DNA from: Pachyseris speciosa
Taxonomy: Eukaryota; Cnidaria; Anthozoa; Scleractinia; Pachyseridae
Length of the DNA: 64,000 nucleotides
Assembly: GCA_016490735.1 (NCBI GenBank)
Contig: JAEMWC010000218.1
Coordinates: 166,001-230,000 of the forward strand
Reading direction: 5' to 3'
Shown here piece after piece: positions 40,782-59,042 of this stretch (the stretch's first letter is position 1; each line of letters starts with the position of its first letter). The notes beneath the pieces were generated by a model. It was not told where the DNA came from and searched no databases. It was given only the letters and a program-made list of their open reading frames with translations. A program made the position numbers and the translations under genes.

Positions 40782-41065
40782 TTATAGCTGCAACTGAACC
40801 AAGCCTTCAGCCAGAGCTCTACGCTGCACAAATTCGTGACATAGTGCCTCACACAGCAACTTGTAAGTCGCATCCGAGCCCTCTCTCTCTTTCCATTTAA
40901 ACAACATACGCCGTGCCTTTTTAGCGTTCTCTTCGTTGTCTTTATGAAATCCAGTTATGTCTCCATCGTGGAATCCTAGACGACGCGCAAGCGGCTCCCA
41001 GGAATCTCCAAGCCTCGGTGACAACCACTCTAGCTCATCCCATGAGGGCGAACCGTCCTTCCACA
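40782..41065 (-). CDS. Gene B exon 11: Death domain and stop
   Basis: The exon starts after TTTGTATTCCAG in phase 1 and ends at TAA (40784-40782). It encodes a clear Death domain: LSPRLGDSWEPLARRLGF, DGDITGF, ARRMLFKWKEREGSDATY, LCEALCH. It is about 80 residues with a short tail. Death domains bind other Death domains in complexes such as the PIDDosome. Confidence 0.88.
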
Positions 41066-58800: not shown

Positions 58801-59042
58801 ATAAACTTCTCTAACAACGTTAGATTGTCCTCGGAGACGAGACCTTGGTTCGCAAAGAGATGAAGACATGAGTACAAATCTTGTTCACCCTGCGCGTTGA
58901 ACTTCCCTTCAAAATTGCTTTTGATCGATGACACAGCGTGCTTAAGTTCCTCCTGACTCAAATCAGAAGTAATATCTTTCAAAAGTTTGTCAAAACGGGG
59001 AGAAATCCCTGGAGTCGGCAACGCTGTTGCAATGGACGCCAT
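40782..59042 (-). CDS. Gene B: NLR-like receptor DED-NB-ARC-TPR-acidic-ZU5-ZU5-UPA-Death
   Basis: Eleven minus-strand exons: 59042-57362, 56311-55017, 54158-54104, 52915-52585, 52285-51942, 51337-51104, 49517-49225, 44632-44297, 43983-43824, 42508-42475 and 41065-40782. All junctions are GT-AG and each exit phase fits the next entry. With exons 5 and 6 at their gene A lengths the coding length is 5052 nt (1683 residues plus stop). By family the ATPase would act as a regulated oligomerisation switch, TPRs as sensor scaffold, and the ZU5-ZU5-UPA-Death tail as in PIDD or UNC5 to recruit death-fold adaptors. The role is inferred. As written, exons 5 and 6 contain small deletions that break the frame, so this is a decaying copy or the consensus has errors. 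Confidence 0.85.
41193..41330 (-). mobile_element. 3' end of a non-LTR retrotransposon with (GACTT)n tail
   Basis: Tandem AAGTC units (41193-41216) sit next to TTTTTATTTAGGCTAGGCAGG. Read on the minus strand this is a LINE-type 3' end, AATAAA-like then a pentanucleotide tail. No coding part remains. It lies in the intron between the Death exon and the microexon. Confidence 0.5.
41331..42474. other. Intron 10 of gene B, remainder
   Basis: It has a C-run near 41434-41455. Near 42155 and 42268, two partly repeated GTTAAGTGTTTGTTTG-type blocks lie about 110 bases apart. No gene is recognised. Confidence 0.45.
42475..42508 (-). CDS. Gene B exon 10: 34-nt microexon
   Basis: TTTCTTTTAG precedes and GTAAGTG follows. 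It encodes AVKSRESINDP and converts phase 0 to phase 1, exactly what the Death-domain exon needs. It acts as a short linker between UPA and Death domain. Confidence 0.7.
42509..43823. other. Intron 9 of gene B
   Basis: A TTTC-rich stretch (42909-42932), a (CA)n run near 43072-43085 and an inverted repeat (GATCCGTATTGGG and CCCAATACGGATC, 43368-43442) are present. A hammerhead-like motif lies at 43575-43608. No coding region is supported. Confidence 0.45.
43575..43608 (+). ncRNA. Hammerhead-like motif (candidate)
   Basis: CTGATGA, then a GACC/GGTC stem, then GAAACGTC. As in the copies at 1075 and 47004, one base intervenes between the core and the stem. It may mark the end of a Penelope-like element whose coding part is gone. 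Confidence 0.3.
43824..43983 (-). CDS. Gene B exon 9: end of UPA domain
   Basis: 160 nt, phase 2 to 0, from TAAAACAG to AAG|GTAAGT. It encodes FDGDLQYKDQLAVRL and closes with LRFRLSSLNIDRK, fitting the last strands of UPA. Confidence 0.7.
44297..44632 (-). CDS. Gene B exon 8: start of UPA domain
   Basis: 336 nt after acceptor TTTTCCAG, phase 2 to 2, donor GTAGGA. It encodes YTYFLDWCKEDL, then ATFFAYFQPTERLHSQ and LICCPAHLRE. This matches the UPA pattern seen in UNC5, PIDD and ankyrins (aromatic strand, then a Cys-rich short strand). No gene A counterpart is in the window. Confidence 0.72.
44871..46053. mobile_element. 1.2-kb element with 13-bp perfect TIRs
   Basis: TGTGTGGGCTACC (44871-44883) is exactly inverted at 46041-46053. 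The inside has no transposase that I recognise. It contains a 23-base palindrome (44963-44985). It lies in intron 7 of gene B, just upstream of the UPA exon in gene direction. Confidence 0.5.
46112..46150. repeat. Perfect 15-bp hairpin
   Basis: TAGTCTCCTTCGCAG and CTGCGAAGGAGACTA around a 9-base loop. Part of a MITE end is likely; similar AGTCTC words occur in the foldback at 37501. Confidence 0.7.
46209..46980 (-). mobile_element. Penelope-like element relic (right copy)
   Basis: The same RT fragment as at 1-1060 but without the foldback insertion, and extending further toward its 3' side. Motifs are NYCTKDSFTF, FDVESLFTNIPLDE, DGVSMGSPLAP, YRRYVDDTF and LVFLDVLV. A small deletion near 46680 (the NTDIKLSE segment) shifts the frame. 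It is inactive and sits in intron 7 of gene B. Confidence 0.8.
47004..47031 (+). ncRNA. Hammerhead-like motif (candidate), duplicate
   Basis: Same core as at 1075-1102, on the strand opposite to the RT fragment. Confidence 0.3.
47032..48913. other. Intron 7 of gene B, no recognised gene
   Basis: Colinear with 1103-2991. Small indels are scattered through AT-rich sequence. Confidence 0.5.
48914..49122. mobile_element. MITE family M2, copy 3
   Basis: Duplicate of 2992-3202 next to gene B exon 7. Confidence 0.55.
49225..49517 (-). CDS. Gene B exon 7: rest of ZU5-2, intact
   Basis: 293 nt, phase 0 to 2, open. It ends VKFQVKRFSG at a GTATGT donor. RFS stands where PIDD has the HFS cleavage tripeptide. 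It supplies the base missing from gene A near 3339. Confidence 0.82.
49651..49835. mobile_element. Foldback MITE M3, copy 2
   Basis: ACAAATGGTAAACG...CGTTTACCATTTGT, near-identical to 3734-3919, in intron 6 of gene B. Confidence 0.7.
51104..51337 (-). CDS. Gene B exon 6: end of ZU5-1 and start of ZU5-2 (2-base deletion)
   Basis: 234 nt against 236 in gene A. Two bases are missing near 51181, so the frame is lost after GGTFSH. The splice sites are unchanged. Confidence 0.72.
51942..52285 (-). CDS. Gene B exon 5: first ZU5 domain (three 1-base deletions)
   Basis: It matches gene A exon 5 but lacks one base near 52135, one near 52032 and one in the A-run near 51945. The net loss of three restores the final phase, but an early stop follows HLQEHE. 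The ZU5 signature (GAVHFTFPPDAV) is readable before the first deletion. Confidence 0.75.
52585..52915 (-). CDS. Gene B exon 4: expanded acidic linker
   Basis: 331 nt, phase 1 to 2, 66 nt longer than in gene A. The extra length lies in GAT/GAC repeats (52840-52905) and adds 22 mostly Asp residues in frame. Two compensating single-base changes near its 3' end (52592 and 52607) alter five or six residues but restore the frame. Confidence 0.75.
53537..53760. repeat. Dispersed repeat R1, copy 2
   Basis: Segmental duplicate of 7556-7780. A TATA insertion near 53722 and single-base changes distinguish it. Confidence 0.6.
54104..54158 (-). CDS. Gene B exon 3: 55-nt linker
   Basis: Acceptor TCTTATAG, donor CAG|GTATTG, phase 0 to 1. 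It encodes EPEKGTSSLPSFLRFGSA and is needed to bridge the phases of exons 2 and 4. Confidence 0.7.
54242..54364 (-). CDS. Possible alternative last exon (gene B)
   Basis: Counterpart of 8261-8383: the same acceptor, 40 codons and TAG, with about five amino-acid differences and no indel. The changes are mostly replacement changes, which argues against strong constraint. Confidence 0.2.
   Translation of the reverse strand, partial: QYTFSCNGRISLSYECTASGIDVYKMALLTAFKCCSYGRR
55017..56311 (-). CDS. Gene B exon 2: TPR array
   Basis: 1295 nt, phase 1 to 0, open throughout. It encodes residues ~561-992 with helical TPR units (QGDYRKAIECYEEALDLAKK and CLEKFDEAEQYYEEAWEI among them). It differs from gene A by scattered substitutions and no indel. 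Equal length and lack of indels contrast with the ZU5 exons. Confidence 0.88.
57362..59042 (-). CDS. Gene B exon 1: DED + NB-ARC + winged helix
   Basis: The ATG sits in AAGATGG. The exon has 560 codons plus one base, all open. It encodes a DED-like fold at about residues 17-84, P-loop GSSGVGKT at 140-147 and Walker B LLLLDNVD near 215-222. ILLTSRGEF follows near 255, GKPLLL near 310, and a winged helix ends with MHD-like IHPLM near 445. The GTAAGA donor gives phase 1. This is the intact counterpart of the frameshifted gene A exon and sets the start codon for both. Confidence 0.9.

Follow-up and report, generated by a model that had tools for sequence, protein, structure and literature searches.

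Activation of NLRP1 and CARD8 through loss of the N-terminal part of the protein is known from mammals. In NLRP1, according to excerpts of the published accounts used here, ZU5 blocks UPA-driven oligomerization and N-terminal degradation frees the active fragment (PMC8081665); PIDD has an HF/S site after each of its ZU5 domains (PMC3210808). The same type of source describes NB-ARC NOD-like receptors (NLRs) in Acropora, with DED, CARD or Death N termini and TPR (PMC4083563, PMC10236652), and elements of such NB-ARC bodies in Nematostella (PMC2246300). ZU5 has been listed in combination with NACHT (PMC8260672) and as NACHT-Zu5 (PMC12909245), and UPA-ZU5 and FIIND are fused to TRADD-N in invertebrates, where autoproteolysis was predicted, in an account that also reports a GT4 expansion in Acropora digitifera (PMC8195603). 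Here we analyse a locus of the stony coral Pachyseris speciosa, located in a window of 64,000 nucleotides (contig JAEMWC010000218.1, 166001-230000, or G000:C218:166001-230000; the genome comprises 984 Mb in 2368 contigs). The locus is real, and judged from its sequence it is best read as one minus-strand gene (window positions 59042-40782) that encodes, in order, a probable DED, NB-ARC, TPR, an acidic linker, ZU5, ZU5, UPA and Death. With a probability of roughly 55%, we propose that this window gene represents cytosolic STAND (signal transduction ATPases with numerous domains) receptors that carry a self-cleaving tail of the PIDD/FIIND type and release UPA-Death on activation.

Exon structure, domain order and related units

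The gene comprises 13 exons, all on the minus strand, and all 12 introns are GT-AG. Exon 1 (57362-59042) provides the start codon, the probable DED (residues 17-99) and NB-ARC (residues 119-325, Walker A GSSGVGKT), which scored 44.7 bits in Pfam at a cut-off of 23.5. TPR repeats fill exon 2 (55017-56296; TPR_12, 119 bits). They are followed by a short linker in exon 3 (54104-54158), which is matched whole in the related copies W1 and D1 and over the full exon length in copy A1, by the acidic linker in exon 4 (52585-52915) and by another short linker in exon 5 (52400-52468). ZU5-1 lies in exon 6 (51942-52285); the Pfam score for ZU5, 34.1 bits, was obtained on the paralogous exon of the window (5891-6406). 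Exon 7 (51104-51337) encodes the end of ZU5-1, with the dipeptide C-S and no F, and the start of ZU5-2, which continues through exon 8 (49225-49517) and terminates in R-F-S, a cleavage pair of the PIDD/NLRP1 type. UPA occupies exon 9 (44297-44632) and ends in exon 10 (43824-43983), exons 11 (42475-42508) and 12 (41967-42059) are linkers, and exon 13 (40782-41065) contributes the Death domain (52.6 bits) and the stop codon.

The original prediction had the coordinates, strand and domain order right, with NB-ARC, TPR, ZU5 and Death found by Pfam in that order, and its GT-AG junctions stand. Its 11 exons have become 13, the phases that it took to agree are broken in exons 6 and 7, and its chain of about 1683 codons gives way to a composite of 1732 amino acids with no internal stops, in which exons 6 and 7 are taken from the paralogue. 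It did not mention the FIIND of NLRP1 and CARD8 or the F-S pair, nor did it note the frame breaks, a tandem paralogue or the recombinant 3′ end; all of these are treated below.

Two of the predicted domains fared less well in Pfam. The DED of exon 1 reached 23.1 bits, below the cut-off of 35.9. It was nevertheless detected at E ≤ 0.01 in 40 of 45 aligned exon-1 sequences, including that of the window gene (the alignment joined its exon 1 to 44 of 120 listed relatives, out of 415 found). PDB sequence searches with the N-terminal region returned no death-fold chain, only unrelated chains at E 0.55-1.2. A structure model of exon 1 had a mean predicted local distance difference test score of 54, and the fold search, which covered mainly residues 112-284, gave no DED support. 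In the single diverged unit (subfamily B) scanned, exon 1 had no Pfam match to DED at E ≤ 1. We consider an N-terminal DED in the window gene probable, and the bridge between DED and Death pathways that had been suggested for this protein requires that the DED be real. UPA had no Pfam match, and its assignment draws on homology and on the modelled fold of a homologue. The tail query, which holds two ZU5 stretches, matches ZU5-ZU5-UPA-DD both by sequence and by fold (the fold taken on homologue P0121), and the closest solved fold is that of ankyrin-B ZU5-ZU5-UPA-DD (4d8o). In PDB sequence searches with the tail, PIDD was reached via its death domain only (E 0.04-0.07); NLRP1 and CARD8 chains were absent from both searches, which is uninformative against kinship. 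Neither LRRs nor ankyrin repeats were among the Pfam families listed for exons 1 and 2 (for exon 2, the best 25 of 30), and the last exon had no CARD at E ≤ 1. NB-ARC and TPR supply the pairing of an NB-ARC or NACHT domain with a repeat domain that characterizes NLR/STAND proteins. Pfam matches above cut-off, homologues and array copies rule out chance or mis-annotation.

The window holds a second copy, the tandem paralogue W1 (873-13328, minus strand), which BLAST aligned to 46800-59353 in two pieces at about 95% identity. W1 has open exons 6 (6022-6368) and 7 (5179-5414), whereas its exons 1 and 8 have lost the reading frame and a part of exon 10 is missing; exons 9-13 of this copy are situated to the left of the window, with Death at C218:160548. 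More units are spread along the contig. We distinguish subfamily A, to which the window gene belongs, from subfamily B; exon 1 and ZU5-2 are just 35-38% identical between them and the order is kept in both, the single B unit scanned yielding NB-ARC, TPR, ZU5 and Death. When exon 1, ZU5-2 and Death were mapped across the genome, 11 of 25 ZU5-2 loci had exon 1 upstream and the Death of the window gene downstream, all on the same strand, at distances of up to 30 kb on either side and without an intervening exon 1. For this map, split matches were merged (exon-1 rows from 38 to 32, ZU5-2 rows from 26 to 25) and 22 of 70 Death matches were used, the others being either more than 90 kb from any ZU5-2 match or on contigs that have none.

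Other corals have the same order, as a search among long proteins revealed gene models that span body and tail: NB-ARC, TPR and ZU5 occurred together in five of five models scanned, and Death in four of five. The Acropora model P0124 shows the whole architecture by Pfam, the Montipora model P0149 aligns to residues 17-897 and 1139-1732 of the composite at 36-37% identity, and the Pocillopora model P0159, read by eye, starts in sequence like the TPR exon and continues into ZU5. All spliced relatives found are database gene models.

The F-S pair and the proposed mode of activation

The listed homologues of the tail, 42-68% identical to the query, share the dipeptide at which PIDD and NLRP1 are cut. 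We collected 146 proteins (P0121-P0152 and P0155-P0268; 120 of 147 hits were listed), and 145 of them aligned across both sites. Of these, 143 carry F-S where ZU5-2 meets UPA, as does the window gene, and the pair is one of the most highly conserved features in an alignment of 147 columns. At the first site, after ZU5-1, it occurs in none of the 145. Other tail alignments took in 28 of 34 hits, or 31 of 34 and the composite. In subfamily B units of the same genome, the ZU5-2 exon seems to end inside the F-S motif. The near-invariant pair suggests that the activation of immune sensors by cut and release may have a very early origin.

We infer the following course of events from the observed architecture, co-linearity, homologous tail fold and F-S conservation. 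The protein would be a cytosolic STAND receptor whose gene belongs to a tandem array of coral NLRs; in it, NB-ARC would serve as the nucleotide switch and TPR, by analogy with the family, as the likely sensor or partner-binding repeat. After folding, ZU5-2 would cut its own chain where it meets UPA, between the F and S of R-F-S, leaving UPA-Death bound and silent. Opening of the N-terminal part by the NB-ARC switch, or its degradation, would then free UPA-Death; UPA would oligomerize and cluster the Death domains, seeding a caspase or NF-kB platform through a presumptive downstream partner. Any role of the DED-like end would be a further, equally conjectural element.

Several observations weigh against this proposal. 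The 143 F-S pairs are not independent events, because the 145 tails include 101 unnamed open reading frames (ORFs) that resemble one another. The triad His of NLRP1 lies 27 residues before the Ser, and by eye coral ZU5-2 has no evident counterpart, although the Ser is kept. UNC5b and the ankyrins have the same fold and are not known to undergo such cleavage. Exon 1, Death or both were missing from the expected order at 14 of the 25 ZU5-2 loci. The gene models are predictions, and the case for one gene is built on them and on genomic order; in 3 of 12 chains that combine ZU5-UPA with a body match (P0139, P0141 and P0147; P0124 was not counted among the 12) the body follows the tail, which we attribute to neighbouring genes run together. 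Exons 4, 5 and 6 contain ATGs in frame, which would permit a separate start. In the stretches fetched, none of W1, D1, E1, A1 and D2 is open across all 13 exons: D1 is without exons 9 and 10, E1 has a broken exon 1 and is missing exons 11-13, A1 is broken in exon 9 and has its own stop codon in exon 6, and D2 shows little match past exon 6. A complete working gene of subfamily A in this genome is therefore unsupported by the copies examined. Ratios of non-synonymous to synonymous change (dN/dS) were 0.72 in the Death exons between the window gene and D1 or E1, and 0.59 in exon 1 and 1.41 in exons 5-8 (six changes) between W1 and D1. In the other exons, those for the body, ZU5 and UPA, the window gene gave 0.28-0.51 against D1 or E1; E1 against D1 gave 0.37-0.40. 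On these values both halves look constrained, as expected of coding sequence, with small numbers at the Death end.

The reading of the window gene as a decaying pseudogene, broken in ZU5-1 and making at most DED-NB-ARC-TPR-acidic linker, survives best among the alternatives; we regard it as a serious though not the favoured possibility, and it is compatible with any reading of the family. Exon 6 has three single-base deletions that are found in none of five other copies aligned, exon 7 has a two-base deletion found in none of three, and the literal frame terminates within ZU5-1, which rules out a frame-consistent model for the window gene itself. The break in exon 6 may have been overlooked earlier because its length, 344 rather than 347, is correct modulo 3. 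Other copies in the array are broken at other places. Set against this, all other exons of the window gene are open, a compensated indel pair close to the end of exon 4 altering only a few residues, and the deletions are clustered. A three-way comparison gave 20 short deletions unique to the window gene; 12 of these (4 exonic, 8 intronic) fell in one 2-kb patch in which substitutions were not in excess, as bad polishing would yield; the rough Poisson probability of this clustering is 5e-5, for a patch chosen after the counts were known. We lean towards a patch of consensus errors in a poorly polished repeated region, with fresh decay as the alternative. If the breaks are real, the window gene may fail to make the full tail; gene models of other corals read through.

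A single NLR gene with a tail that acts as a clamp and stays intact, on the model of UNC5b or ankyrin, strikes us as rather unlikely; here ZU5 would keep UPA and Death closed until the NB-ARC switch opened them without proteolysis. The ankyrin-B fold is the closest solved one, the first-site F-S is missing throughout and the catalytic His is not clear, all of which this reading accommodates; the conservation of the second-site F-S among homologues of 42-68% identity argues against it. Least probable, and put at long odds here, are two adjacent genes duplicated together, one for a DED-NB-ARC-TPR receptor and one, under a promoter of its own, for ZU5-ZU5-UPA-Death: the ATGs in exons 4-6, tail-only gene models such as P0178 and polyadenylation-like hexamers in the introns (uninformative alone) would fit, but the phases of exons 2-6 join both halves, TPR and ZU5 share one chain in Montipora and Acropora models (and by eye in P0159), some unnamed tail ORFs (P0174, P0237) appear on reading to start with an intron end, and the order is conserved in co-linear diverged units.

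Recombination, mobile elements and the tail as a cassette

The 3′ end of the window gene appears to be recombinant. Its sequence over exons 9 and 10 (43684-44690) matches E1 and A1, both of subfamily A, at 92-96%, and that over exons 11-13 (40700-43523) matches C1 and D3, both of subfamily B, at 75-90%; the Death end thus most likely came from subfamily B by recombination, with the junction in intron 10 (43523-43684). D1, a subfamily A copy, matches over the junction (42717-43780, 94%) and so has the exchanged end too, and in W1 the junction falls inside the truncated exon 10. In the fetched stretches of E1 and A1, exons 11-13 are replaced by an exon resembling the post-UPA exon of Montipora P0123 and Acropora P0124. 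This conserved 'VE(F/I)xG...NDE' exon, which substitutes for the Death block in subfamily A copies, was seen at C218:35531-35881 (L025) and C218:433526-433882 (L018). Death is 80-96% identical across subfamilies whose bodies are 35-38% identical, and the two window copies (W1 and W2) are 99.1-99.9% identical in the last 4 kb and 95.2-97.9% farther up, a pattern that points to outputs being homogenized while receptors diverge.

Some sequence in the window resembles retroelements. Intron 8 contains reverse-transcriptase-like frames (46209-46915, minus strand; FDVESLFTNIPL..., YVDDTF), with a related stretch at 1-378. We presume a Penelope-type element from the resemblance; the name lacks Pfam support, as 46212-46691 gave no reverse-transcriptase match. 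Frames that by eye look like broken retroelements (20013-31189, plus strand) separate the two receptor copies, and among the four scanned there RNase H (29152-29754) was the sole Pfam match above cut-off. A reverse-transcriptase fragment at 35492-36331 (minus strand) scored 25.7 bits for RVT_1, below cut-off. Three minus-strand fragments (31411-31632, 33840-34312 and 63521-63757) are 32-51% identical to exon 1, possibly remnants of more NB-ARC units between and beyond the two window copies.

Coral gene models also join related ZU5 tails to other partners: GT4-conflict (P0121), CHAT (P0122), GT4 and Roc-COR (P0129), HEPN_DZIP3 (P0143) and Skp1_POZ/GT4 (P0142), some of which may be run-ons. Among P0160-P0267 (101 of source ena, and P0178 from Porites evermanni), a single ORF of 538-681 amino acids encodes the complete ZU5-ZU5-UPA-Death tail, so that eight exons (6-13) in the window gene correspond to one ORF in another coral lineage; P0174, P0204 and P0254 are genomic DNA, given their contigs of 0.2-1.7 Mb. 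We tentatively suggest, as an idea still short of an even chance, that stony corals have a large class of array-encoded, self-cutting immune sensors, with a ZU5-ZU5-UPA-Death 'release cassette' that recombines between genes and is placed on many modules for detection or effect (NB-ARC-TPR, GT4, CHAT, Roc-COR and HEPN). If this is true, cut-and-release as in NLRP1, CARD8 and PIDD would be a general and ancient immune output and not a vertebrate speciality. A coral NLR with the same module order and a near-invariant F-S makes the age of the mechanism testable by a simple expression assay, and offers a concrete candidate for the output of the large NLR repertoires of corals, which have been discussed in connection with symbiosis.

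Comparison with known systems

The combination of NB-ARC-TPR with ZU5-ZU5-UPA-Death, and its F-S pair, may be new; the body elements had already been reported from cnidarians. Searches of an open-access library, which leaves out most subscription papers, found no description of either. The view that this is not a described family agrees with these searches, but gene models are already in public databases as uncharacterized proteins. The excerpted accounts of cnidarian NB-ARC NLRs describe similar body elements and do not mention a ZU5-UPA-Death tail. Metazoan conflict proteins, in the excerpts available, likewise place ZU5 or FIIND on varied immune modules, but the partner there is TRADD-N and here NB-ARC-TPR (no search specific for TRADD-N was made). 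Ankyrins and UNC5 share the tail module, ankyrin-B (4d8o) being the best match by sequence and fold, whereas no ankyrin repeats were found in the coral gene.

The comparison with PIDD1, on which the original prediction drew, holds, as does the fusion of such a tail to an NB-ARC-TPR body: both proteins have the order ZU5-ZU5-UPA-Death and F-S after ZU5-2 (the S588 site). The coral protein differs in its body, which is NB-ARC-TPR and not LRRs, in its DED-like N terminus and in a tail without F-S after ZU5-1 (the S446 site). The FIIND of NLRP1 and CARD8 also has ZU5-UPA with F-S, followed by a C-terminal death-fold domain, and in NLRP1 it is joined to an NLR body. Here the differences are NB-ARC-TPR for NACHT-LRR, two ZU5 domains, Death for CARD, and the Glu-His-Ser triad, whose His is not evident by eye at the NLRP1 spacing. 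As a functional parallel, the FIIND of NLRP1 and CARD8 would be closer than PIDD.
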